This document shows positions 10,914-28,249 of a stretch of 64,000 nucleotides of DNA, one piece after another. The stretch is from Tremella fuciformis. Lineage: Eukaryota > Basidiomycota > Tremellomycetes > Tremellales > Tremellaceae. Below the pieces are notes generated by a model. It was not told the origin of the DNA and made no database searches. It saw only the letters and a list, made by a program, of their open reading frames with translations. The stretch lies in NCBI GenBank assembly GCA_032768795.1, contig CP136495.1, forward strand, positions 1,676,501 through 1,740,500, given 5' to 3'. How positions within the stretch are numbered: the first letter of the stretch is position 1; each line of letters starts with the position of its first letter. The translations under genes were made by a program, and so were the position numbers.

Positions 10914-13900
10914 ATGCCCCCGCCGCGCTTCTCCACGTCCAAGTTTCGCAATGCCGTCCCTCACGTCCCGGCGAGGGAGGAGTGGTACCGCTCCTCGCTA
11001 CCCTCTGCGCCGGCCACCTCAACGTCATCCGCACTGTCCACATTCACCTCCGAGCTGAAAACAACTCGAGAGTGGATCGTGACCGTCGCGCCGTCCGGGG
11101 AATGCTCGTATAGACCCTTTGAGCCTTCGGGTCAGGTGCGCACGGCCAAAGTGGGTTCGGGGACCGTGGGGGATTGGGACGTCTCCAGGTTGGAGGGAGG
11201 GCATCTCGCGGTGGGATGCACGGATGGCTCGGTCAGTCCGCTCTTGAGCGTGTCCTCATCGCTTGACTGACTTTCAGGTGCACGTATATGCCCTACCCCG
11301 CACGGCAGATGGAGGAGAGCTCAAGCAGCTGCACACCATACCCGGCTCTTCTCCCATCTCCCATGTCGTCTTCCACCCAACTACCCCAGACTTACTGCTC
11401 GTTTCCTCCCCAGTTGCCCCCGGAGCGATATACGACCTCTCGTCGCCCTCTTCACCAGCTATCTCTCTTGAGTGTACCGAACCAAAGGGGCTATGGAGCA
11501 TATGTTGGTCACCTGATGGCCGGTCCGTCGCGGGCGCAGGGAAGGGCGGCACAGTGTACATCTGGACCCCTAGGGCCAGCAGCACCCCCACACTCTCTCG
11601 CTCCATGACGCTTCTGTCGCCTCTGAAACCGATGAAGATCGTCTGGGTCGGGGAGCACCTGTTCCTCACTTCATTCTCGAAGACCCGGCAGAGGGAGTAT
11701 CACGTCCTCTCCTCAGCCGACCTCAAGACTGCACACACTGGCTCGCTCGATACTTCCACAGCGCCGCTGGTCCCCGTAGTCGACCAGGAGCGCAAGATCG
11801 TCTATCTCTCCGCGAAGGGCGACATGACGCTACGCCAAGTAGAGCTCATCTCGCCCGTCAGCGAGACCGTACACCCGCTACCACATGCCCTGTCGTCTGC
11901 TAGTCTGGCTCTGGCTTGGCCTGGCGTGCTCGACGTGATGCAGGCGGAGATTGCCAGGGTTTTGATGCTGGTCATGGATAAGGACGGCGAGACGATTCTG
12001 CCTTTGGGGATCAAGGTACCGCGGCGGCAGCTTATCGACTTCCATGATGACCTGTATCCGGACATCACTGGCACTGGTGGGTATTCTGATGTGCTTGACC
12101 CGAGTTGGACATGGGCACGCTGATATCCAGTGCCGGAGCAGAGTGCGGTAGAGTGGGTCCAGGGCGGAGACAAGATGCCATTGCCTATGTCGCTAGATCC
12201 CAGCAGGCGAGGGGTCTGGGAGAAGGCATTGGAAAGCGCACCCTCCGCACCACAGCATCGAGCCGCAGCTAGTCCGCCTGAGGCTTCTCCTGGCGCACGC
12301 AGTGGAACGCCTGTGCAGGAGTCCAGCAGCACAACACCTGCATTGGCGGCCGTACGGGATGAGGCCAAGTCAAACCTGCCCGCGCCAAGCGGGCCCGCCG
12401 GTCCCGCGCCTTCTCCTGATCTACCGCCATTGGCAGAAGGCGAGTCATACGCCTCAACATCATACAAAGTCCGCATCATTGGCGACCATATCGCGACCCA
12501 GCTCTCAGGTCCGCGAGCCCACCCCGAGCGTCCGCTGATGGTGGGTCTCCAAGGTCCACAAGGCTGCGGCAAGACCACCCTGTGCGATTCCTTGGTCGCC
12601 AACCTGTCTGAGCGTGGTCTGCGGAGTGCGGTCCTTTCCCTTGACGACCTCTACAAGACCAATGCGGGACTCAAAGCGGTCGCAAGAGACAATCCGAATA
12701 TCGTGCTGCTCGCTGGTCGAGGACCGCCTGGTACTCATGATTCCGACCTTGCCAAAGAGGTGCTATCGACAGTTGCATCCATCAACGATGAGAAGGGGAA
12801 GAAGGTTGAGCTTCCGATCTTCGACAAATCCCTTTGCGGAGGCGAGGGTGACCGGTCGACAGAGACCATCTCAATATCTGGCCCTCTGGACGTCTTTGTG
12901 CTAGAAGGCTGGTCCATGGGTTTCACAGCCTTATCTTCCGACGAGCTCAAAGCGGCCTACGAAGACCCTCCACCCGCGCCGCCAGCAACCGCATACCACA
13001 AACAGCATCCCTTATCTGACTTGATGACCCTTAACGGCTACCTGCGGGATTTTGGGTCTCAGGTATATCCCTCCTTCGAAGTCATGGTCGCCGTCGAGCC
13101 GACCGATTATGCCAATGTCTTCAAATGGCGCTTGCAGCAAGAGCATCACATGAAGAGCAAGAATGGTGGGAAGGGTATGACGGACGAGCAGGTGCACAAA
13201 TTTGTTGAGCGGTACATGCCCGGATACGAGCTGTGGCGAGACGGCGTCGTCAAGGATGATGCGCCTTGGGCAGGAAGGGTACTGAGATTACTGTATGCAC
13301 CTGAGCGAGAGGTCATACGGGTTGAGAAGCCTGCAGCTCCCCCCAGCCGTCCTGCACCGACCGTCTCCTCGCAACTGCCAGCTGCAACCGCTTCCAAGGC
13401 TGAGCAGTCCGCCACAGCAAAAGTGGACACGCCGTCTCCTCGAACTCAGGCGGTCCCCGAGACACCCGTCAAATCGACCCCGATCACATCCAGGACCGCG
13501 CTGCTCTCAACAGACGGAGGTCAACCGAATTTGAACTGGTCGCGGAAATTCCTCGCTGCCAAGTCTCCACTGATACCCTCCTACGACCAGGTGCCGCCGC
13601 TGTCTACCCTGCACCAGGACTCACTCGTTCTGAAGATTACGCCTCAGCTCGCATTTTTCCCGGTTCAAGGACCTGGAGGTCGGCTTGGTGTGCATCCGCT
13701 CAAGAAAAAGGGGCGGATGGCAACCGGCGGCGAGGGATATCTATCGAATGGTGTCGAGATTGTGGACTTTGCGGTAGAGCCTTTCGCCTCGACCTCGGGG
13801 ACCAGAGTGGCTATCGCAGGCGAGGACGGGGTGATCAAAGTGTGGTCGATCGGCGAAGATGGTGTGCAGGGCACGGGGCCGCCGGCGGAGGTGACTCTGA

Positions 13901-15050
13901 AAGGTGAGCTTGGGGTCAATGTGAGGCGCACATACGTGCTGACTTTCAGGTTACGCTATCGACAAAATCGTCTCAATAGCCTTCCACCCCACCGCCAGTG
14001 GCCTCTTATCGGTCTCGTCTAATGACGCCGGGAAGTCCATTGTACACTTATTCGATCTCTCGAAGCAAAGCGAGGTGAAGTCAGTCGAGCTTCCGGCTAC
14101 GAGCGGCATATTCAACTCTGTTTGGTCGCCATGCGGCGACAAGCTAGCACTGGCTACGAAGACCGGAGAAGTCGTTGTCGTCGATCCAAGAGCGCCAGAG
14201 AACGGGCTTCGAGGAAAAGCGCACGACTCACCTCGTTCTTTCCAATTGGCATGGCTTGATAGCGAACACCTTGTCAGTGTCGGGTTCGGCAAAGGGTCGG
14301 CTAGGAAGATCAATCTCTACGCCCTATCCACGAACGGCATAGACACGCTATACTCGCTCACTGTGGACATCTCCCCGTCCGTGCTCTTCCCGTTATATGA
14401 CCCCGACACTGGGATCTTATACATCTGGGGCAAAGGAGAGCGCGCGATTCAGGCGTACGAAGTCCGGCCCGATGAATCGGGCGAGAAGATCAGCAAATTG
14501 CCGACGTTCACCGCTGGTAGCCCACAGCTGGGCGTCGGCTTCTTTCCCAAGAGATGTGTAGACGTGAAGAAGGTCGAGATTGCCAGGTGTCTTCGCTTGA
14601 CGGCGCGAAGTATCGAAGAGGTGTCTTTCACAATCCCAAGGAACAGGGTATGTCTTGCAATTGATGGGTAATTCAGCTCTGATGAATAGCCCAACTTTTT
14701 CCAGGACGATATATATGTCCCGACTCTTGATAATGAGAGTCCGGCTGTGTCTGCGCAGGAATGGCTAGACGGGGCAGCTGTGAAGTTGCGATACCGAGAC
14801 CTGCGGCCGGAAGGCATGACACCATGTCAGCTTGCCTCTTCTCGATCCTCAGAGCTGACAATCAGTATCGGAGGCTCCGAAGACGACGACGCCTGCAAAG
14901 AAGAAGTTTGTCCCTGCTGCGAATATCATGTCGGAAGAAGAGAAAAAGAAGCAAGAGATGGACCGGCTCTTCCAGAAAGCCAAAGCGGATGAAAGTAGCG
15001 ATGACGAGCCGGTGCAGAGCGGTCTGGCCCCGCCGGACGACGACTGGTAG
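10914..15050 (+). CDS. Tandem-propeller coronin with an inserted Tda10/glycerate-kinase-like domain
   Basis: Six exons (10914-11231, 11278-12076, 12131-13903, 13950-14647, 14705-14825, 14866-15050) give 1297 residues in one frame. Residues 1-~430 form a first coronin unit: start RFSTSKFRNAVPHVPAREEW, WD-type repeats, end VPRRQLIDFHDDLYPDITG. Residues ~475-770 form a P-loop kinase of the yeast Tda10/D-glycerate 3-kinase family: GLQGPQGCGKTTL (Walker A, ~514), GRGPPGTHD, GGEGDR, VLEGW, WRLQQEH, GKGMTDEQVHKFVERYMPGY. From ~836 a second coronin unit follows (LNWSRKFLAAKSPLIPSYDQ; DVKKVEIARCLRL; DDIYVPTLDNESPAVSAQEW) with a short charged coiled coil at the end. Coronins bind F-actin/Arp2/3; two-propeller forms are the Crn7/POD-1 class. 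An in-frame TGA at 12121-12123 lies inside a canonical 54-nt intron and is not a break. Confidence 0.85.
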
Positions 15051-15902: not shown

Positions 15903-16722
15903 CTCGCAATTGGCTCCTTTGGCTAGTACTAGTATGTGAGGAGATTGAGATGGGAGGCGTTGCCAACTCGACGCAGCTTCTTATGCCATTCAAGCAGCCG
16001 TCGAAGCAAGTATGCATCCGGCCTCGCCTGTGCTCGCTGTGTACATCATTGCGCCTTCAGGTACATACACCTCATCAGCACCTGCTGCCCGCTGTCGCTG
16101 CTCCCCCTCAGCGATAGCAACGATGCTGATGGACGACTGACAATTGCCCAGCCCGAAGGCGCGGAAAGCATAACCGCATCGCCGACGCCGATCAAACAGG
16201 CACCACACCCTTTCGATCACACTGCCACGTACTGCCACACCCACGTACTTCGCCACAGCCCGACGCACGGGCAAGCGGTGCCGAATTCAGGGATTGATGA
16301 TTAGGGCACGATCGGGCTTAGCGCACGTACGTGCATCGCCCTCACCTCCACATTCGCCGTCCACCGGTGCTGCTTCTCAGACTACCCAGCACTGGCCGCA
16401 CAGCTCACAGACATCGCTCGCAGTGCGTGAGAGATGGGGCCGGCTGCGCAGTCGGTAGCGAGGAGACGTCAAAGGTGTGCGAATGAATCGAGCGATTGGA
16501 GCGATGGGGTCGTCGAGACAATGGGCCCAGCCTAATCTCCCCCCAATGGTGGCTTGGAACTAGTGTCGGACCCCTCGATACCGGGGGCTGAACAAAGAGC
16601 CTTTGTATCGCATCCCCCCCCAGATCTGCCGGCGTCCTTTGAGCCATCGCGCTCCACAGCAGCCTCGTCAGCCGTTCCAACACTATATAAGGCGTCGTGC
16701 TGGAACGCTTTTGAGATTACTC
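15903..16722. other. Intergenic region upstream of the tandem gene array
   Basis: Contains the promoters of the cupredoxin gene (minus strand) and of the first array gene. A 12-base palindrome (GCACGTACGTGC) lies near 16322. No gene model could be supported here. Confidence 0.4.
16684..16690 (+). promoter_or_regulatory. TATA box of the first array gene
   Basis: TATATAA sits 39 bases before the ATG at 16723 and 105 bases before the one at 16789. If transcription starts about 30 bases downstream of the TATA box, the downstream ATG (16789) is the likelier translation start. Confidence 0.55.
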
Positions 16723-16788
16723 ATGCCGCTGCACAACCCATTCAGGCACCACGAGCAGCAGCCAGCACACGCCCAAGCAGGACACACC

Positions 16789-17293
16789 ATGTCTCTTGTC
16801 AGTCTGCTCCCTGACACTGTGATGGTCCTGCTGACGGGCAGTACTACGTTGTCTACCCCAACTCGGCCTTCAACGAGCGAGGCTTCAGAGAGGCTTTCGA
16901 CCACACCTACTACCAGGCGGAGAAGGGTGGGTTGCCTTCCAAGAGTGTGGTCGGCCAAGGTTTTCAGGCTCACCCACAGGCAAGACGCAGCTCACCCTTA
17001 CCTTCTCGGCCCTGCCGGCCAAGGTGCAGCAGGGATACGGAGCGGGCGGCGCCCACCCCGACAAGTTCCTGACGGTCACCCCTCGCGGCGCTTTCGACAA
17101 GAACGACAAGAATCTCATCCAGACGGCCGTGAGCACCGCTGCACGACAGATTGGGGCGTCATGTGAGTACTCAACTGCCGGGCGGCGCCAACGCTGATGA
17201 CAGCCTCGCCGGTCAGCAGCTACCCGTAAACCCCCGGCCTCCGAGAACGTCGAACAAGGACAAGCAGAAGGGCGCAGTGTACGAGTAGTGTAG
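16789..17293 (+). CDS. Array gene 1: small orphan protein, divergent family member
   Basis: Exon 1 is MSL (16789-16797; an in-frame ATG at 16723 would add 22 residues), exon 2 is 16842-16926 (YYVVYPNSAFNERGFREAF), exon 3 is 16980-17162 (KTQLTLTFSALPAK through LIQTAVSTAARQIGAS), and exon 4 starts at about 17217. Intron phases are 0/1/1, as in all array genes. The exons are longer than usual (85 and 183 nt instead of 67 and 138-147), so this is the most divergent member. The predicted order is strand-helix-strand-strand-helix. No signal peptide or membrane span. The last acceptor is uncertain: alternatives stop at 17229 or 17293. Function unknown. Confidence 0.6.
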
Positions 17294-17601
17294 ATACAGC
17301 TTAGAAGTAGAAGAACGATGTACCAACCACCTTTGTCGTCGAACAGACCTGTACACAGGCGGCTACATCGGTGCTAGGTGTGACTCGCCTGGGCTGCCAA
17401 GGAGCTGTTTGAAGCTCGCGCTGCATCGCACACTTGAGCCACGCGACAGAGTGTGTGCGTCCATGCACGCTCCCGAGCGCGTGCTTCACGCGACTTTACA
17501 ATACGAAGACCGTCTGGTCACAGGCGACAGCCAACTTGCCAGCGGCGGGGAGCTGTTGCCTTCTTATCCCGCTGTAGCATTCGACCGTCACTCGTGGAGC
17601 G

Positions 17602-18298
17602 ATGTGTCTCTCCATACTGTGCTCTCTTATTTGCAGACCTTTAGTCTCCAGATTTCTGGAGCGCACCAAATTGCCAGACTGGGCCCTCGACGCCGACGGT
17701 GATCGGGTCTCCTTGCGGGTGAGTGATCACCTTCATGACAATCAAGGCCCCGCTGATGCCTGATTCAGTGGCAGACATATCGTCTCGATGGACTGACGAC
17801 GATCGATCACCTCCAAGCAGCTATCGACAGGTTGGGTAGGTGATCTAGGTATGCTTGACCTCGGTGAGGGACTGAGGAACAGACAGGCGGCACACGAATA
17901 TCGCCGTCTGGGTGAAGCCTCTCGACACCGGTCACGATATGTGCTACGTCTACGTCCCCGGACAGAACACCACCGAGAACGAGGCGTTGGTGGAAAGACT
18001 ATTGAATGACATTGGGAATGGGGTGTCCCGTCAGCTGCCTTTTATATTCGCGCTCCTTCCCCCAAGGGCGGCAGGCCTGACCTATTACTGACTTTCAGAC
18101 GCGCCGATGCCCCCGACTGTGATGCCTTTTCCAACGTGGTCGAGAAAAAACATGCCGGGGAATGAGGCATTCTTCTCGATATGGTCGAGGGGCCCGGAGA
18201 GCAGACGCGAGACGGATACCTCTTATACCGTTTCCGGACTGTACGTGACTCGGGGCCGCAAGAAGTGCCCTTGTCTGTGTCGGCTTTGTTGGACGTAG
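17602..18298 (+). CDS. Array gene 2: Cys-rich-termini orphan protein
   Basis: Exons 17602-17718, 17769-17835, 17883-18029 and 18099-18298 (117, 67, 147, 200 nt) give 176 residues; phases 0/1/1. Exon 1 encodes MCLSILCSLICRPL..., exon 2 begins WQTYRLDGL, exon 3 contains TNIAVWVKPLDTGHDMCYVY and an amphipathic helix ENEALVERLLNDIGNGV, exon 4 has PPTVMPFPTW and ends KKCPCLCRLCWT. Cysteine clusters at both ends suggest palmitoylation and membrane attachment, or metal binding; this is inference. Gene 3, directly downstream, has identical exon lengths and clear similarity throughout, marking the two as sister duplicates. Family unknown. Confidence 0.72.
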
Positions 18299-18533
18299 TC
18301 TGGACCGTCATGTAGTATAGTGCTTGCGCCCAACAACTGGGTGTCTGGTCACCCATCTCCTGTGTAGAGTGTGCAGCGGACCACGTAAGGCGAGACAAGT
18401 CTCGGGACGCGGAGGCATGTTTAACGCGTGTTTCAGCGCACGACGAAGGTGTCACTACCTACATAGACGTTGGTACGACTTTGCTCCACTTGTCGAACGC
18501 ACTCCACCGACGAACCGATCATCTTGTCAGAAG

Positions 18534-19224
18534 ATGTGTCTGACACTCTTCTACGTTCCAGTCATCAAGTGCATCCTCTCGAAGATAATTAAAAGCTCCC
18601 ACCCGCCACCATGGGCAATCGATGCAAACGGCAATGATCGGACATTGCAGGTGTGTCTTACACCTTGACGCTTGCGCAGTCCCCCTGAGTTGTAGTGGCA
18701 GACCTTCCGCCTGCAAGGCCTGGTCTATTTCGCACCGATCCAGGCTGTTCTGGATGGGTTGGGTTTGTGGCGAATCGCGTCATGCACCTCAGACACTGAC
18801 GAGCAGACCAGAACAAGACGAACATCGTCATATGGGTCAAGCTGCTCGGAGGTGATACCCATTTGTGCTTTGTCCACGTCCCTGGACCCGACATCGCCCA
18901 GAACGAGGTATTTGTCGAGTCGTTGTTGAACAGCATAGGCAACGGAGTCGTCCGTGAGTGTGTCCACTCACAATGGCCCCTCGTTGATGAGGAGATCGTG
19001 TAGAGCTCCGGGTGCTGACCCCAGATACGCGGCTGCCTCCGACTGAAATGCCGTTCCCAACTTTGTCTTACAAGACTGTACGGAGAGACGAAACCATCCA
19101 TTACATCTGGTCGGCCAAGACGGGACACGGGAGTCACACAGAGAGCTTGAGTCTTCAAGGGACTTTATATGTCCCCCGGAGACCAAAGCGGCGCGGCTGC
19201 TTTGCCCGTCTGTGCTGTTGGTAG
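18534..19224 (+). CDS. Array gene 3: sister duplicate of array gene 2
   Basis: Exons 18534-18650, 18696-18762, 18807-18953 and 19025-19224 (117, 67, 147, 200 nt) give 176 residues, the same four lengths as gene 2. Exon 1 starts MCLTLFYVPVIKCILSK, exon 2 WQTFRLQGLVYFAPIQ, exon 3 carries NKTNIVIWVKLLGGDTHLCF and NEVFVESLLNSIGNGVV, exon 4 has LPPTEMPFPTLSYK and ends RRGCFARLCCW. The reading frame is intact through all splices, so it is not a pseudogene, although read unspliced it looks full of stops. Conserved positions relative to gene 2 include TNI-x-x-WVK, the Cys before the PG turn, IGNGV and PPT-x-MPFPT. Function unknown. Confidence 0.72.
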
Positions 19225-19541
19225 GTCATCAAGCCGCCCGTAGTACAGAGGCCGTACTGTACATAGCAATGTGATGAACAAGTCTTCCCCACGGACTGCC
19301 TGTAAGCTTGTTCCTGCACTACCGAAGAGCAGGTCCCCATCTACAAACTACAGAGCCTTCCCCTGAAGAGCACGGCTCTATTGTGACCATCCTTCGATGA
19401 AACACACGACGTGTCCGTCAGAAGCGAGCCTCGTGTTCACACGCAGACTAGCACGCTCCCTTGACACTGTCACCTGGAATTTTCGTGTTGAAAGACAACT
19501 TGACCCAACTCAGCTCACTCTACTAAGCCTCGCGCACCAGG

Positions 19542-20277
19542 ATGTGCCTCGGACTGCTCTGCATACCCTGCTACCAATGCTACCAGAGCACATTCACCAG
19601 TAAGGCCTTGTTCGAGAAGTCAAAACCCCCGTACTGGTCGGTTTCCAATGGCGAGAACCTTCGAACTCTGACAGTAAGTCCCGCCAGGTCTAAGTAGGGA
19701 TATGTGCTGACGCCGTAGTGGCGGACGTACAAGATAGAGGGTCTGAAAGACGTGGTGCCTCTCAAACAGGCTCTTGAGGCGCTTCGCGAGTCCGAATTCA
19801 GCACATTCGAAGGCTCACTGACACCCAGCCAAAGGTACGAACCTCGGCGCGCATCTACGGCCTTACGAGGGGGGTAATCATATCTGTTACTTCTTCCAAC
19901 CTGGCGAGCATACAGAGGAGGCGGACGCATTCTACGAAAAGTTGCTAAGCATACCGGGCTGGGGCGTCACCTGTCAGTCCGCAATTCGGGTCGTCAGGTC
20001 ATGAGGAGCTGATGGAGTAGACAGCATGCTGGGCGATACCGAGATGATTTGGCCCATCATCATCGCCGGCCACTGTCCTGACGATCAATTCCTCTTCGAC
20101 ATGTGGTCGTACGGGTCAGACGAGCATCAGGTCACTGGAATGCGGACACTCTGCGGGGAGGACCTTTTGCCTGTAAAGATGCGGAAATGGCGTAACAGAC
20201 CCTTTGGGAAGAAAGTCATCGCGGTTCTCAGCAAGCTGAAGTATCAGCGGAAACGAAATCCCTGGGACTACTACTAG
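19542..20277 (+). CDS. Array gene 4: orphan family member with a GC-AG intron
   Basis: Exons 19542-19673, 19719-19785, 19835-19972 and 20021-20277 (132, 67, 138, 257 nt) give 197 residues. Exon 1 starts MCLGLLCIPCYQCYQ, close to genes 2 and 3; exon 2 begins WRTYKIEGLKDVV; exon 3 holds TNLGAHLRPYEGGNHICYFF and EADAFYEKLLSIPGWGV; exon 4 has MIWPIIIAGHCPDDQFLFDM and ends KRNPWDYY. Intron 2 can only be joined in frame with a GC donor (GCGAGT at 19786), which gives the family's 67-nt exon 2 and phase 1; the only nearby GT breaks the frame. The alternative is a one-base frameshift, which would make it a pseudogene. Confidence 0.68.
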
Positions 20278-20590
20278 TTGAGTTGGTACAGTACATACTC
20301 TACGCGAAAAAGCCTGTCATGCACCGCGATTCTTGCTGCCTCATCGAATACGAAAGCCACTTCCATGTCTGCCGCTCGCTCGCCGCCGCGCACGTTCCCG
20401 CCGCCATGACTCGGAGGTGCTCCAGCGTCGTCCGTGCACGCGATAGCGGCATGCGGCGCGCGCGCAGAGCGCCAGGCTCACGGCAGGCGAAGAATGGCCA
20501 CTGACGACCCCATTCCCATATAACGCTTCTCAACCTCTCCCCTCCCTACACTCCCACATCTTGCTCGCCACTCCGACAAGAACCGCAATC
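20278..20590. promoter_or_regulatory. Upstream region of array gene 5
   Basis: 313 bases. Contains an alternating GC stretch (GCGCGCGC near 20456) and ATATAA at 20518-20523, about 70 bases before the start of gene 5, a probable TATA element, followed by a pyrimidine-rich leader. Confidence 0.45.
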
Positions 20591-21790
20591 ATGTCAACGA
20601 TGATCGGTCCGTACTGGGCCTACTCCAATGCCCAGCTCAGGGATCTGCAGGTACGTCTCATCTACGCATCGCTGCTCTTCGACTGCTATGGTGAGGTGTC
20701 GCTGACAGGTAGTGGCAAAAGTACCACATCGGCGGTATCACCGACCCCAACAGCTTCATGCACCAGCTGCATCAGCTCTGTAAGCCCCTCGCTCTCTCAC
20801 GATCGTGCTGACCTGGCTTCAGTGCCCTTCCCAGAGCTCATCGCGGACCTTCGCCCGTCTCCGCGCAGCGGGTACTCGCTCTACGTGACCACACCATACT
20901 CTTGGGGCATTCACGACGCGATGAAAGTGGCGATGGTCCTGGCGAGCATGGGTCCTACCATCTCTCGTCAGTCCTTCTTCCCTTAAGCTGACCCGTACGG
21001 AGCTGACAAGGAAGAATGCCTCGTCGGGACTTACACCTTCTTCTTGCCCGTCGAGCTTGGCCCTGGGGTCTTCCGCATGACCAAGTGGGTCGAAGCAGGC
21101 GAAATCATCACCAAGTTCGAGGGCGACCTCGACCGCGGCAAGATCATCGGCGAGCCGCACGTCCTGAGCCCGGCCGCACAGGCGTTCGCACCGCAGGGTG
21201 TCCCTCTTCCACCCACGCCCCAGGGGTACGGCTCGCAGGGATACCCGTCGCCGCAGACCTACAACCCGGCTTTGGACCAGCAACGACCGCGACCGTATCC
21301 CGCCTCTGAAGCGCCCAACCCGCCACAAGACTCCGGTGCCGGTCAAAGCTACAACGCCAACCAAGGCTCGGATCCACGCCAAGGCTACGGCGCTGCGCAA
21401 GGATACAACCCCTCTCAGAGCTACAACCCCAACCAAGGTTACGGTCCTCAGGGCTATGGCCCCGCTCGCGGTCGCACTCCCGCTCAGGCCCAAGGCTACA
21501 ACCCCGCTCAAGGCTACCCTCCTGCTCCCGCCCAAGGCTACCCGCCTGCTCAAGGTTACTCGTCCCCCCGAGCCCACAGCACTCCTCAGCCGTACAATGC
21601 CCCTCAAGGTCAGAACCAGACCCAAGGCTACCTCCCGCCCCGCGCGTATACCCCCGCTCACGGGTACAACGGCCCCCTGCCCTACCCTCCCGGTCGAAGC
21701 TTCAGCCCGGGTCCTGGCGGTACGGCGCCCCCTTCTCCTCTCGTCAGAGACATGCGACCCGCCGTGTCGCATTGGCTCCAGCAGATCTAA
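20591..21790 (+). CDS. Array gene 5: orphan family member with a PQGY-repeat prion-like tail
   Basis: Exons 20591-20650, 20713-20779, 20823-20966 and 21015-21790 (60, 67, 144, 776 nt) give 348 residues; phases 0/1/1. The folded part (~165 residues) follows the family plan: exon 2 starts WQKYHIGGITDPNSF, exon 3 has SGYSLYVTTPYSWGIHDAMK, exon 4 starts CLVGTYTFFLPVELG and FRMTKWVEAGEIITKF. From about residue 175 to the end the protein becomes a low-complexity domain of imperfect G-Y-N-P-A/S-Q units rich in G, Y, P, Q, A and lacking charge, like phase-separating prion-like regions. No other array member has such a tail. It ends RPAVSHWLQQI. Function unknown. Confidence 0.72.
21230..21720 (+). repeat. 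Coding minisatellite: GY(N)P(A/S)Q units
   Basis: Imperfect repeats of about 15-24 nt encoding GYGSQ, GYNPSQ, GYNPNQ, GYGPQ, GYNPAQ, GYPPA and similar, at the 3' end of array gene 5. The units are degenerate at the DNA level, so the repeat is not a recent perfect expansion. Confidence 0.75.
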
Positions 21791-22049
21791 GTCCCACTTT
21801 GCTATGCTATCTTTGCGCGGCATCCTTTGTACAGTAGCTCCATCAAGTAGGCTTGCCGCTTGAAATGCGAATGTATCCGCGATAACGCGTGACAGCCATG
21901 CGTAACTCGCTTCGACGATGATGATGATGGCGGCGGACATGATGGGACCGAGGAGTGCATCCTCGGTTGGACGGACGCCGTGTGCTTCCGACTCAATGTG
22001 CTTGAAGTTGTGAGACGATCTTTCTACCTCTGTCTGCCCTCCATCCAGA

Positions 22050-22689
22050 ATGAACGCCCCCGAATGGGCGTACCTCGACGGCCGGCTTATCGACTTGACC
22101 GTAAGCATCTCCTCCGTGTGCCGCAAGCGGTGGTGTCGCTGATGGCCGGTGGCAAAAGTTCCGCATCATCGGCCTGACCGAGCTCAATCCCCTGGTGGAC
22201 CTCCTGGATAGAGCGTGTGAGCCTGCCTCGCCTCAGCGGTCCCGAGAGAGCACGACTTGCTGACAGCAGTGACCATACCGCTCCTCGCGGTGTACATTCG
22301 ACCGTCCGCCACTCAGGGGCACTCCCTCTTCGTCGGCACGACCAGGAAATGGCAACAAGAGGAGCTCGCCCAGCTAGCAGGCGTGCTCAACAGCCTGGGG
22401 CCGGCTCTACAATGTCTGTACTCATTTGCCTTTGGTCTCAATACTGATGCTAGGTGCCTGGATCGAAGAGTGCTCGGTGCCGTATCCCATTGGCACCCAG
22501 ACCCCTGGCATACGGTACGCCCGCGCCCTCAACATCGGCACCGAGACCACCAGTCCCGATGGGGCTATTGCGCAGGAAGCTCGTAGCGACTTGGAAGAGG
22601 TGCAGCGCACTCCTGGTCGTGCCGGGGGAAAAGGGCGGCCGAGGGGATTTGTCGGTTTTGTGAGGGGCATCTTTGCTCAGCGTGGTTGA
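22050..22689 (+). CDS. Array gene 6: orphan family member with a damaged or shifted acceptor
   Basis: Exon 1 22050-22100 (MNAPEWAYLDGRLIDLT), exon 3 about 22270-22413 (TIPLLAVYIRPSATQGHSLF, 144 nt), exon 4 22454-22689 (WIEECSVPYPIGTQTPG, ending FVRGIFAQRG). Exon 2 by family rule would be 22150-22216 (67 nt, starting WQKFRIIGL), but the two bases before it are GG, not AG. The next AG downstream gives exon 2 at 22159 and removes exactly W-Q-K in frame (162 residues; 165 if the GG acceptor is used). So either the acceptor moved or the gene uses a rare acceptor. Exon 3 has a CAGCAG acceptor pair, either of which keeps the frame. Function unknown. Confidence 0.65.
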
Positions 22690-22899
22690 AACGTGTTGAT
22701 CTGCGTCGCCTGAGCAGGGCAGGGTGATTGTCAGTGTGTTCCTGTGTATTCTCGTTCCTGCACGAGGCTGAGAATGTGCTGGTGATTGGGCAGTGACAGG
22801 GAAGCCGCCTCGAACAGAGCTGAGCACACAATCATGCAAGTTACATTCTCTCCATTCTCCATCTCAACGACCGAACTATCCTCTTCACTCAGAAGCAAC

Positions 22900-23510
22900 A
22901 TGGGTCGGCCCCCTCTGCTTACCGGTGAAGCGTTTGCTACCAGTCTATACGTGAGGTACTGCAAGATGCCGAAATGAAACTGACCTCCAGTGGCGCTATA
23001 TCCGGATAGGCAGTCTATCCAAGGCCGAGATAGCAGAAGGGGTCGCTTCACGGCGTTCGTGCTCGAAATCTTCTTGTAGACTCCCCGCTGACCGACAGTA
23101 TGCGGACCGCCCATTTGGCTGTGGTTTGCAGAGCAAACCTTTGGGAGGCCTTTCGCGCTGGGAAAGCAGCTCCCGTGGACCGCACACGAAATTGACTCGG
23201 TTGATCGTGCTTTAAAAGCCCTTTGCGCCAAACGCCGCTGCAGCTGTGCGTCTGCGGCCTTGGCCAGAATGACCGAAAGTCTGACGCAACAGACGAGTGG
23301 CTCAGCAGCACCGCCGAGCCAAATTTCAAGTCTCCCGATGGGATGATGGTGGCCAGAAGACTTCCCTCAGAGGAAGGACAGATGCGTTTGAAGCATTTGG
23401 TCGAGAGCCGATCGAACAAGGGCACGGTCGTGTTTCGCGTGGATCGCAAAGACCGAGAAGGTCTGGGGAAGTACAAGCCTTGGAAAACAGGATTTGCCGT
23501 CAGCAGTTGA
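22900..23510 (+). CDS. Array gene 7: orphan family member
   Basis: Exons 22900-22950, 22991-23054, 23099-23245 and 23293-23510 (51, 64, 147, 218 nt) give 159 residues; phases 0/1/1. Exon 2 starts WRYIRIGSLSKAEIA and is one codon shorter than the family's 67 nt. Exon 3 has PPIWLWFAEQTFGRPFALGK and a helix TAHEIDSVDRALKALCAKRR. Exon 4 is basic (MRLKHLVESRSNKGTVVFRV) and ends KPWKTGFAVSS. The exon 3 pattern (P-x-I-W-x-x-F) groups it with genes 8 and 9 rather than with 2-4. No targeting signal seen. Function unknown. Confidence 0.68.
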
Positions 23511-23897
23511 GCGTAGTTACCTAGTACAAGTAGGCGTATACACGCCGATGCGTTTTGATGAATCTCGGCTCGTATTTATGTTGCTCTCCTGCTCAGTAAA
23601 GCTCGTCATCAGGCTAGACGACGCGTGCTCGTCTCGTGTCAACCACGACCTCCTCACCTACAGCTCACAGCTGGACGCGCGGCTTTCGAAGGCCGAGGGC
23701 GAGGCACGTCCGGCCGCCATGAGGCAGCCTGCCTTTTCACGGCACTCCGCCTCGAGGTGCGAGTGGCAACTGTCAGACCCAGAAGCATAAATCTCATCTA
23801 GCCTGCTGCGGATGAGCATCCACTCCTTCATCCTTCTCTCAGAACTCCTCTCTGTTACCTCTCTACCAAGTCCGACGACGACAGCGAGCAAAGAACG
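23511..23897. other. Intergenic region between array genes 7 and 8
   Basis: 387 bases with no supported gene; probably the promoter of gene 8. An AT-rich ATAAAT motif occurs near 23788, about 110 bases before the start. Confidence 0.4.
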
Positions 23898-24406
23898 ATG
23901 CTGAGTAGGTGGAGACCAAGAGAGTACACCTCGGTCGGAACGCCTCTCTATGTACGCCGACCGACTTACAGTACCCCTGACCAGGTGCTGACGTGCAGTG
24001 GCAAACTTACGATATCCGCACTTGGGACCCAGCGCAGGCTATCGCCGACCAGCTCGCGGCTCGTCGTGCGTGCCGCGTTTCGTCGGGGTAGACGGTGCTG
24101 ATAACAGTCGCTGGTCCATCGATCTGGGTCGAAGTGGGCAACGGAGGCTATGTCGGTATCGGCAAGGAGCTCTCGTGGATGGACTATGAGGTGGATTCGC
24201 TGGATCGGGCCTTGCGCGGCCTCAGCGAGTTGCGACACTGGCAGTGTGAGTCGTTCACATCGGTCTGAGAAGAGGCTGAGGACCATGTAGACCAGTGGAC
24301 CGGCCGGTACACGCGGCCTTATGCCTACGACCCGACCCTCTCGCTCTTCACTCGGAGGCTGATTGCTGCCGAGGGCGACAATCGACTCCGTTATCTGCTG
24401 GGCTGA
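23898..24406 (+). CDS. Array gene 8: smallest orphan family member
   Basis: Exons 23898-23951, 23999-24065, 24108-24245 and 24291-24406 (54, 67, 138, 116 nt) give 124 residues; phases 0/1/1. Exon 1 is MLSRWRPREYTSVGTPLY; exon 2 starts WQTYDIRTWDPAQAIADQL; exon 3 has GPSIWVEVGNGGYVGIGKEL and MDYEVDSLDRALRGLSEL, the latter close to gene 7's helix (EIDSVDRALKAL); exon 4 ends RRLIAAEGDNRLRYLLG. This minimal form probably represents the family's core fold: two strand-helix units. Function unknown. Confidence 0.7.
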
Positions 24407-24875
24407 GTCGATGTTGGACATGCCCGCACTGCGTCTGCATCGGTGATGCTCACCTCCCTTCTCCCGTCTCTGCCTCATGCCAATCCTGCCGTAGTCCCGT
24501 TATTCCCAGAATGATTCCTTCCCGTACCAGATAGACATTTTCTGCATGTGCCTCCCCTCTCTCCTCACGTCATGACGCCCAGCACGGTCTAAAAGCTTAA
24601 ATGCCCCGAGTCGCAGCTTCTCCTTCACTGCCCAATCAGCATCACATCCATCACGAATTGTGATGCATAGGAACGACCAGATCGCATCTTCACTGGATTG
24701 TGTTGCACACACTAAGCGAGCCTATGAGGCCCCACCAAGGATCAGTCGGACCCGATACATACACAATGACGCCCCTTGCAGACGGACAGCACGCCGAACA
24801 ACGCCCGTGCCGCATTCCAGCTTCTGAGACATCTTTCCATTCTGCTTGTCCATCCTCATAATCCAATTCACCAGG
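24407..24875. other. Intergenic region between array genes 8 and 9
   Basis: 469 bases. No gene supported; a short minus-strand frame (24500-24712) lacks any motif. Presumed promoter and leader of gene 9. Confidence 0.4.
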
Positions 24876-25585
24876 ATGAGCTCAGCACAGGCTCAGAAAC
24901 CATTCTCGGGAACGTTGTTTGTCAGTCCTCTCATCCATGAACACAGCATCATGATGTGCTGACTGCCAGTGGCGAGTCTACACAGTCTTGCCCGCGGTCT
25001 ATCCCGAACATGCCGCACAATGTCTAGCGGGCAATCGTATGGCCTTTTGCCTGAAGACGATTCGTTAGCTGACGGTGACGTCTGTGGAGATCCCATCTAC
25101 CTCTGGTTCCGACCGCCTCCCATCGCGGAAGGGTTTCAGAACCTCTACATTGGGAAAGCGGACGATTGGACACTGGACGAGAAGCTCTCGCTCGACAAAG
25201 TGCTCAAAGTCCTTCATCAGGAGCACGGCTGGGTATGTGAGTCACACTCTGCGTGATTCAGACACGGCTGGAGTAGCTGACGGCAGTCCTGCTGTCTGAC
25301 GACACCCACGAGCGACATCGCCCCGGTCGGATGGACACCTCGTTCAAGATGGACTTGCCGAAGGAGCCCGGCCAGACACGGCTGACGCAGAGGACAGGGG
25401 TGACGGGTGACCCGCCGGATGTTCCATCGCCGCCGGAGCCGCGGGATGTGGGTGATGCATCCAGAGACACAGCTGCTATCCCGGGACCGGGAGCGGAGGC
25501 CAAGGAAGGCATCACCGGCTCGCCAGGAAGAAGAGCTCCTCGTGCGTCCGGAGGTTGGCGTCGATGGCTCTGTGTAGCTCCTTAG
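24876..25585 (+). CDS. Array gene 9: orphan family member with a Pro-rich tail
   Basis: Exons 24876-24920, 24970-25036, 25090-25236 and 25287-25585 (45, 67, 147, 299 nt) give 185 residues; phases 0/1/1. Exon 1 MSSAQAQKPFSGTLF; exon 2 WRVYTVLPAVYPEHAAQ; exon 3 PIYLWFRPPPIAEGF, NLYIGKADDWTLDEKLSLDK and VLKVLHQEHGWV; exon 4 is a disordered tail (DVPSPPEPRDVGDASRD) ending GGWRRWLCVAP. The cysteine four residues from the end invites comparison with a CaaX box, but a terminal proline is not a usual prenylation signal. The exon 3 length and P-I-W/Y-L-W-F motif match gene 7. Function unknown. Confidence 0.7.
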
Positions 25586-25811
25586 CGCGCGCGTTGTTGT
25601 ATTGTTCTGTCAGCTTCACCCGAGAGATTCTTTGAAGACGTCACTTTCTGTGTATCTCCTGTGGACGTCTATTGGATTCGTCTCGTGGTCACGGCGACCC
25701 CAAAGGATGCACACACTCACACAGACATAAAGCCGTCTCCAACAACGAGTGTGATCGTGTGCAGGATTCTCGCCTCCGTAAGATCACAATCCGCCATCGA
25801 CTTGCCCCAGG

Positions 25812-26555
25812 ATGAGCTCCTCCGACGGCTTCTTGAACATTCGACGCCCATGGTTCATCGAAGAGTCGGGGAAGCCTGTGCCCCTCCATGTGAACAGATA
25901 CCATACCCTCCCCAAAAGCAGAGATCTGATCCGCAGTTCCTACACCTGGCGCTGGGAAGGGTGGACGATGTAGGCAAGCTTGTGACGGACCTGACTAGCG
26001 AAGGTATTCGGCGTGGTACGCCATGATGATGCGCTCTGACGAGGCTAGTGGACGGAGTCGACTGCTACATTTGCGCGCACTCCGACGCCCACAAAGACAC
26101 CTTGTTGGTCCTGGGAAAGAAGGAGCGCTGGGACAAGGCCCGGCGCAATCGCATGATCAACATCTTGGAGACCCAGTTTGGGCAGAAATCCAGCGAGTCT
26201 TCCTCCTACATTGATCGACTTAGGATGGACTGATCGCCCAGTCACCCCGCTCCGAGTCACGATGGGGGTCCACCCGCTCGCCGAACGAGCACAGGATCTC
26301 TGGCTCGAATACCTCACGGCGCCGACCTACCACCAAGCCTCCATGTACATTGACCGCAGCCAGCGGTCTCGAGCGCAGGCGTGCTTCCAGAGGGGGGCCG
26401 ATGGCTGGAGAGACGACGTGGGCGAGCAGACATGGGACAACGCCGCTTTCTACATTGAGGACCTGCGCCTTTTGGCGTATCACTCGACCCATCCCGACTT
26501 GTACACGAAACGGGTGGAATTGGACCGAGATCTGGACTGGGCTGCGCTGCATTGA
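25812..26555 (+). CDS. Array gene 10: orphan family member with a GC-AG intron
   Basis: Exons 25812-25889, 25937-26003, 26049-26192 and 26242-26555 (78, 67, 144, 314 nt) give 200 residues; phases 0/1/1. Exon 1 MSSSDGFLNIRRPWFIEES; exon 2 FLHLALGRVDDVGKLVTDL, with F instead of the usual W; exon 3 VDCYICAHSDAHKDTLLVLG and a basic helix KARRNRMINILETQFG; exon 4 PLRVTMGVHPLAERAQDLWL, ending VELDRDLDWAALH. Intron 3 joins in frame only with donor GCGAGT at 26193, the same GC donor seen in array gene 4; the nearby GT donors give the wrong frame and a different disordered tail. Last member of the array. Function unknown. Confidence 0.66.
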
Positions 26556-26899
26556 GTGCGCCGGGATCGAGCTACGGGAATGATTGTTCTGCCTTTAAAG
26601 AGAGCCCCTCCTACCACTGTATGAATAACCGTGTGCAGATTTGAAAGCCTGACGAGTGTTCTGTATCCCGGACGCGCGAGCTGCAGGGCGACGACGAGAC
26701 TTCAAGGCGAGACACTTGCCAATGCACCCCTTGTCTGTCCGAAGCAGCTACGGGCAGCCATCCTTTGCCCACATTTCAAGGTCAGTCGCTACCGAGAGCT
26801 AGCCTCCCCACCGTACGATCCTCCCGAATCGCTTTTCTTCCTGATCCCGCCTCCATTCCTGTCCTTCACAACAGCAAGGCTACTTTCCAATATACAACC
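26556..26899. promoter_or_regulatory. Upstream region of the intronless orphan gene
   Basis: 344 bases with a pyrimidine-rich leader just before 26900. The open frame continues upstream to 26765 but without features that favour an earlier start. Confidence 0.4.
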
Positions 26900-28249
26900 A
26901 TGGACCCCTCCGTACCAGAGGAGTCAGACGAATGGACCATAGTTCATGCTCATGACCACTCTGACATCGCAGCAACTCGGGACGCAGCCTACTGGAAGGG
27001 CTTGCGTAGACCACACCACCCCAACTCGCTGGACAGTGCCGATCAGCTAGCTTATGTGCGGCATGTCTTGTCAAAGCAGGTCGCGTTTGCCAAATTGCAT
27101 CAGCAAGGTGCGCTGACAGTCTTGAGCTCACCCGAAATTCAAGGCAGAGAAATCTTGCTGGAAGACTACATACCTGTCAGCGAAGAGCTGCAAGGCGTCA
27201 ATTTCACTGTCAAGATGGAAATCGGCACACGGGATCAAGATCCTCTCCTCATCAAAGCCCATGTGAGCTGGAACAATGACACACATACCAATTTCAAGGA
27301 TATCAAGAGGAGCTTCGTAGGATTCCGCTTGTGGGGCCAGAACTCACAGGTGACCAAGATGAATGCGACTCTTGGTATGTTCGATTGGAGCTATACAGAG
27401 GAAAAGCGATTTGTCTACCGAGGCGCCGATGTCGGCGGAGTCTACAATCCTCGGACGGGCGCCAGCATCTCTTTGACGAGGATATGTGAAGCTGAAGAAA
27501 TGCTTAGAGACTCCGTGACTCCAGCAGAAGGTTGCGATACCGATTGTATTCCCGTGGCGCGAGATCAAGTGCTTGGCTTCTGGCGGAAGAAGACAACTCC
27601 CGTGAAGCACTTGAAGTATTCTGACGAGAAGTCTGTGCTGTTCAGTCAGCCAACCGCAACTCAGAAGGTGATAGTCACATCCGCCACTCTGAAAGAGTAC
27701 CTGACTCTGCCATATGCCTTTTCCAAGGTCTTCCAATCATCGAGCTTCGCGCCATGTATAGGGACGGACAGTGGAGAACGTATGCTATCGCTGGGGGCGC
27801 TCGAAGGAGCAATCCCAAGCATCCTCATCAACACGGACTTTGCTTTTCGAACGTCGTCGGCCAGAACGCCACAGGGTGGAGAGTACAGTTGTGATCTCTT
27901 CTGGAACCGCAAAGAGGAGATAGTGCGACTGAAGATGAGCGAGTCCGAAATGAGAGAAGCTTTCTCTCTCGAGGATGTGCCAGCGGGAAATGAAAATACT
28001 CCCTGTCCCATCGCTGACCGGCATTACGCAGGCAGTTTCAAGGCGACCGTCTCCTGGCCGAAGGTCAGCATGACGCTCACATCGCGGTTGGGGTCTTTCA
28101 CCGAGACCAAAGACTTCTCGAAAGAAGAAGTGAAAGGATCGGGTCTCTGTGGTCTTCGCCAGAGCAGTGTGGATGAGGCGCTGATCTTTTCAAAGGCAAT
28201 GGAGTTCACAGACTTTTCCGCCCGTGTGGAAACCAGAAGCTGCGTATGA
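26900..28249 (+). CDS. Intronless orphan protein (449 aa)
   Basis: One uninterrupted frame starting MDPSVPEESDEWTIVHAHDH, 449 residues, mixed alpha/beta in appearance with many charged and aromatic residues (FKDIKRSFVGFRLWGQNSQV; AFSKVFQSSSFAPCIG; FKATVSWPKVSMTLTSRLG). No signal peptide, membrane span or catalytic motif recognised. It lies directly after the tandem array on the same strand but lacks the array's four-exon plan, so it is not a member. The opening (acidic residues, then W-T-I-V) faintly resembles the orphan starting at 31467 (GDGWSLVQ); this may be chance. Intronless status is unusual in this intron-dense region and could mean retro-origin or a lineage-specific gene. Confidence 0.65.
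   Translation: MDPSVPEESDEWTIVHAHDHSDIAATRDAAYWKGLRRPHHPNSLDSADQLAYVRHVLSKQVAFAKLHQQGALTVLSSPEIQGREILLEDYIPVSEELQGVNFTVKMEIGTRDQDPLLIKAHVSWNNDTHTNFKDIKRSFVGFRLWGQNSQVTKMNATLGMFDWSYTEEKRFVYRGADVGGVYNPRTGASISLTRICEAEEMLRDSVTPAEGCDTDCIPVARDQVLGFWRKKTTPVKHLKYSDEKSVLFSQPTATQKVIVTSATLKEYLTLPYAFSKVFQSSSFAPCIGTDSGERMLSLGALEGAIPSILINTDFAFRTSSARTPQGGEYSCDLFWNRKEEIVRLKMSESEMREAFSLEDVPAGNENTPCPIADRHYAGSFKATVSWPKVSMTLTSRLGSFTETKDFSKEEVKGSGLCGLRQSSVDEALIFSKAMEFTDFSARVETRSCV

Follow-up and report, generated by a model that had tools for sequence, protein, structure and literature searches.

In a 64,000-nucleotide stretch of the genome of the silver-ear mushroom Tremella fuciformis (GenBank assembly GCA_032768795.1, contig CP136495.1, positions 1,676,501 to 1,740,500; hereafter the window), which is fungal DNA of about 57% GC with short introns, ten consecutive predicted genes on the plus strand form an array of about 9.9 kb (16789-26555, or 1,693,289-1,703,055 of the contig) that appears to be a fast-diverging tandem family. 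Numbered G1 to G10 in their order along the strand, they have the starts and the four-exon design claimed for them in a preliminary description of this DNA: all ten starts are ATG codons, all ten predicted four-exon frames are intact and encode proteins of 117 to 348 aa, with three introns each of 40-71 nt, and the last gene ends at 26555 as claimed (Table 1). Introns were selected manually so that the genes would agree; the top models of an automatic enumeration often had extra introns, in the tail. With the hand-chosen introns, the predicted intron phases are 0/1/1 in 10/10 genes.

The inner exons are close to fixed in length. Exon 2 measures 67 nt in seven genes (G2, G3, G4, G5, G8, G9, and G10), 85 nt in G1, 58 nt in G6, and 64 nt in G7, while exon 3 measures 144 or 147 nt in eight genes, the exceptions being G1 (183 nt) and G8 (138 nt). 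The shorter exon 2 of G6 (67 less 9 nt) is explained by its acceptor: the usual place carries GG instead of AG, and the acceptor sits 9 nt downstream, after TGGCAAAAG, where the next AAAAG restores the frame. The predicted proteins share a conserved core of some 70 residues from exons 2 and 3, whose length is nearly constant, whereas the first and last exons on either side vary in length. A shared protein plan opening with W-x-x-Y/F, also described earlier, holds in part: exon 2 begins in this way in six genes (G2-G5, G8, and G9) but not in the other four. The 30 predicted introns comprise 28 with GT-AG and two with GC-AG splice sites. The two GC introns share the donor GCGAGT, which thus occurs twice within the family, in intron 2 of G4 (19786-19828) and intron 3 of G10 (26193-26241).

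Table 1. Predicted genes of the array, with coordinates in the window
Gene	Length (aa)	Exon 1	Exon 2	Exon 3	Exon 4	Strand	Remarks
G1	117	16789-16797	16842-16926	16980-17162	17217-17293	+	Doubtful tenth member
G2	176	17602-17718	17769-17835	17883-18029	18099-18298	+	N-terminus Cys-rich and hydrophobic; C-terminus basic and Cys-rich
G3	176	18534-18650	18696-18762	18807-18953	19025-19224	+	All four exon lengths equal to those of G2
G4	199	19542-19673	19719-19785	19829-19972	20021-20277	+	Intron 2 GC-AG; blastp to G2, G3, G5
G5	348	20591-20650	20713-20779	20823-20966	21015-21790	+	Long QGYxP low-complexity tail; blastp to G6, G4
G6	162	22050-22100	22159-22216	22270-22413	22454-22689	+	Exon 2 shorter by 9 nt; blastp to G5
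G7	159	22900-22950	22991-23054	23099-23245	23293-23510	+	blastp to G8
G8	124	23898-23951	23999-24065	24108-24245	24291-24406	+	Source of both structure models
G9	185	24876-24920	24970-25036	25090-25236	25287-25585	+	blastp to G7
G10	200	25812-25889	25937-26003	26049-26192	26242-26555	+	67/144 nt exons; intron 3 GC-AG

Homology among the members was assessed with the spliced proteins. By blastp, the expectation values (E) were 4e-49 for G2-G3, 4e-25 for G2-G4, 5e-22 for G7-G8, 4e-14 for G5-G6, 1e-7 for G7-G9, and 2e-5 for G4-G5, and further links joined G3-G4 and G2-G6; six of the nine other members are less than 20% identical to G2. We then compared profiles of three subgroups, A (G2-G4), B (G5-G6), and C (G7-G9). 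The values were E 2e-7 for A-B (hhalign probability 93.5), E 2e-3 for A-C (a low 14.6), and E 0.02 for B-C (a low 2.2), with 0/60 shuffles in each comparison. In an anchored test, in which exons were scored in register with their ends against shuffles, exon 3 gave 0/2000 shuffles for each of G2-G10. Judged from these predicted sequences, eight members (G2-G9) are safe.

The claim of ten members stood for G2-G10, which form one family by sequence, but G1 is weaker than claimed. Membership of G10 is nearly safe: exon 1 gave 0/5000 shuffles in addition to the result for exon 3, although exon 2 gave 284/2000, no blastp partner was found under E 0.009, and profile comparisons with the subgroups (9 to 24/60 shuffles) did not join it to any of them. 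For G1, blastp of the spliced proteins yielded no significant partner, the anchored test gave 30/2000 shuffles for exon 3 and 879/2000 for exon 2, and profile comparison gave 2/60 shuffles against G10 and 18 to 41/60 against groups A-C; it is likely the tenth member.

The closest relatives are physical neighbors, which points to growth of the array through serial tandem duplication. Best partners adjoin each other to a degree equaled by 328 of the 40320 orders of G2-G9, and in a tree of the core the split between G2-G6 and G7-G10 has support of 80/84, every branch staying below the 95/80 mark. One four-exon ancestor gene at a single locus would thus have expanded through successive tandem duplications.

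Searches for relatives elsewhere agreed with the earlier statement that the family has no recognized ones, near the limit of detection. In Pfam, nine of the ten proteins had no match of any kind and G10 had a single sub-threshold match to Nup120; a profile search of PDB sequences gave nothing beyond one match at E 0.2. In a protein database, the ten-member alignment retrieved none of 2530 candidates at E 0.01, and G2, the sole member queried alone, none of 58 candidates at E 1. The control query, TTI1 of this window, retrieved 61 proteins from this database out of 8000 candidates scored; the matches came from many Tremellomycetes, the named ones belonging to Tremella, Kwoniella, Cryptococcus, Saitozyma, Naematelia, Dioszegia, Vanrija, Cutaneotrichosporon, Cryptotrichosporon, and Kockovaella. 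Its nearest match was 84% identical, so the database seems to lack this species. These searches speak only in part for absence from related proteomes, the family being near the detection limit. We also searched the species' own genome (28,140,229 bases in 11 contigs) with nine of the proteins (all but G3, with G5 as 146 residues) and a consensus. The array ranked first every time, and nothing elsewhere scored better than E 0.1; the consensus placed exon 3 of G2, G6, G5, G9, G3, and G4 before all else. Because single members retrieved just their near relatives, this genome may carry a distant copy outside the array. As far as searched, the family is apparently restricted to the T. fuciformis lineage.

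The structure of the core was approached through G8, modeled as a read-through of 23999-24403 that includes two introns, so that some residues are intron-coded. Model 1 had a mean predicted local distance difference test score (pLDDT) of 54.0 and, within its own exons, a helix at 11-23, strands at 42-46 and 51-56, and a helix at 62-79; its strands at 32-35 and 83-86 fall on intron-coded residues and are meaningless. Model 2, with more exon rows, had a mean pLDDT of 53.3 and the same helix, hairpin, and helix, with β1 absent. Over residues 41-80, block means were 76-81 in model 1 and 72-82 for both models together. These two low-confidence models agree only on the β2-β3 hairpin and α2, in exon 3, the parts modeled with fair confidence. 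The helix-hairpin-helix order is compatible with the protein plan for which one common fold had been proposed, but two low-confidence models of G8 give no proof of it. A possible, if doubtful, alternative is that the genes are highly diverged members of a known, widely conserved family, the pattern of elements being suited to a ferredoxin-like or RRM-like domain. The order of elements in the models suits the middle of such a domain, and the weak structural neighbors of model 1 include what we take to be de novo designs and S6 permutants. Unlike ferredoxin-like and RRM-type domains, however, the array proteins have unsupported outer strands and no RNP-type motifs by eye; fold searches with model 1 returned weak structural matches and no known fold, and none of the ten proteins had an RRM or ferredoxin-like Pfam match at E up to 10, in a search of limited sensitivity.

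A second alternative is that the proteins are effectors, secreted or at the cell surface, that act against Annulohypoxylon stygium, the companion fungus. Tandem expansion and fast divergence would fit such a role, and A. stygium consistently accompanies T. fuciformis, according to PMC13288022. We consider it unlikely. No obvious or typical signal peptide was seen in any of the ten proteins, inspected by eye without a prediction program, and the proteins are apparently non-secreted. Moreover, in PMC10696834, all accessory chromosomes and compartments, which are tied to the interaction with A. stygium, lie in low-heterozygosity regions, but the array locus, taken as lying on Chr06, is outside the low-heterozygosity regions given there for Chr06.

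Divergence within the family is unevenly distributed along the proteins. Similarity is higher in exon 3 than in the tail in 7/7 pairs, and in exon 2 than in the tail in 5/7, which bears out the variable C-terminal tail described earlier; variability of exon 1 is uneven, with identities of 8/17 for G5-G6 and 7/15 for G7-G8. In the tail of G5, tandem repeats of 24 and 42 nt at 21477-21559 encode QGYxP units of low-complexity composition. Nonsynonymous (dN) and synonymous (dS) divergence by the Nei-Gojobori method (NG86) were 0.50/2.85 for G2-G3, 0.86/2.25 for G2-G4, 0.89/4.1 for G3-G4, and 0.85/1.82 for G5-G6; for G7-G8, dN was 0.61 and dS undefined. Thus dN is below dS in four of five pairs, the fifth having no value, yet dS is saturated at about 1.8-4.1. 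In 8/8 pairs, change is lowest or tied for lowest (the tie being in G7-G9) at codon position 2 and highest at position 3. These values do not support the diversifying selection suggested previously and make purifying selection, averaged over the genes, likely; relaxed selection, the other suggestion, would look the same here as fast evolution under purifying selection. The low rate of change at codon position 2 also counts against the array being the relics of an old one, decaying or unexpressed, a reading that we hold still less probable than secreted effectors: the splice sites are odd in places (the G6 acceptor and the two GC donors), but frames are intact across three introns in every gene.

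We scanned the whole window, on both strands, for chains in which an open 67-nt exon is followed, across an intron of 38-74 nt, by an open exon of 144 or 147 nt. Unfiltered, such chains started at 10 positions within the array, at 10 plus-strand positions outside it, and at 12 on the minus strand. When the first codon had to be Trp, six remained in the array (five real genes and one spurious chain within G5), with nothing left on the rest of either strand; when a donor filter was used in its place, the array kept six (five genes plus a spurious chain at 16878), the rest of the plus strand kept none, and the minus strand kept two. When 266 pairs of exon sizes were compared within the array, 67/147 and 67/144 came top with three chains each, one of the six being spurious, against a mean of 0.13. 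Codon usage was best in the called frame in 9/10 genes. Chance, that is, a reader seeking a pattern and fitting exons onto non-coding DNA, gains a little from the ease with which short exons fit outside the array, even after donor filtering, but has next to no probability left, being at odds with the exon-size ranking, refuted for G2-G9 by protein-level homology between spliced neighbors (blastp down to E 4e-49), unlikely for G10, and conceivable for G1. Exon sizes and phases, scans, blastp, and the profile and anchored tests all agree with the tandem family on a fixed gene frame that had been put forward.

Several observations weigh against this picture. The introns were chosen by hand, with the expected phases as a guide in G1, G4, and G10, and 0/1/1 in all ten genes therefore does not amount to ten independent results. 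G1 is tied in weakly, the scores of exon 2 in G6 and G10, and of exon 1 in G8 and G9, are not clearly above those of shuffles, and the codon usage of G9 slightly prefers a different frame. When members were left out in turn, an exon-3 profile recovered five of nine at E <0.01 and missed G4 (0.54), G5 (41), G8 (1.9), and G10 (no match), with a non-member scoring 0.09. These misses place the family near the detection limit, and the claims of absence elsewhere with it. Both structure models are poor overall; β1 is not formed, and α1 is low, with block means of 62 and 55.

The reading that we favor, with some reserve, is a fast-diverging, apparently lineage-restricted family at a single locus, grown by tandem duplication, with a small intracellular core and variable ends. 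Lineage-specific tandem orphan gene families are a known kind in fungi. The array resembles them in its single locus and strand, in the greatest likeness between neighbors, and in having no outside homologs found; it differs in its near-fixed inner exon lengths and in having no obvious secretion signal. From features read by eye, the inner exons would encode a small intracellular α/β module with the sequence pattern β1-α1-β2-β3-α2, which may serve in dimerization or in binding a partner or ligand, and the variable ends would determine where and with which partners each copy acts. The Cys-rich hydrophobic N-termini of G2-G4 and the basic Cys-rich C-termini of G2 and G3 hint at membrane attachment through lipid anchors, and the QGYxP tail of G5 suggests scaffolding. 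A bolder version, which we regard as improbable, would make this a new intracellular recognition family, with a fixed core of about 70 residues on length-locked inner exons and exchangeable ends, tandem-diversified in one mushroom lineage, possibly with a fold of its own and a part in self/non-self or partner recognition between fungi. The array provides a natural series in which gene structure outlives sequence, exon lengths and phases pointing to common descent beyond the reach of blastp. Such arrays are easily overlooked by open reading frame callers, and this one offers a set for studying the origin and roles of orphan families in an edible mushroom living alongside a second fungus.

The surroundings consist of ordinary genes: upstream, a TLC-domain protein, glycerate kinase, and WD40 pieces; downstream, TTI1, a PHM7-type transporter, a polymerase delta subunit, an F-box protein, a 2-oxoacid dehydrogenase acyltransferase, ankyrin repeats, and Vps16. 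For T. fuciformis Tr01, PMC10696834 puts the mating loci on Chr07 and Chr08, and PMC13288022 places the homeodomain (HD) locus of strain YN01 on a chromosome numbered 06; we take YN01 chromosome 06 and Tr01 Chr06 to reflect different numbering. RNA-seq described for Tr01 in PMC10696834 covers yeast, mycelium, colloid cells, fruiting bodies, and colonies mixed with A. stygium, and PMC13066641 deals with 27 T. fuciformis haplotypes. The next gene downstream of the array, at 26900-28249, is an open frame of about 450 residues that starts MDPSVPEESDEW; it had no Pfam match (searched as the open reading frame 26645-28249) and no PDB sequence match, and may be another orphan. Upstream, at 11248-14671, a D-glycerate 3-kinase open frame has a WD40/coronin-like stretch on either side; the two stretches may be coronin-like genes that surround the kinase or are fused to it.

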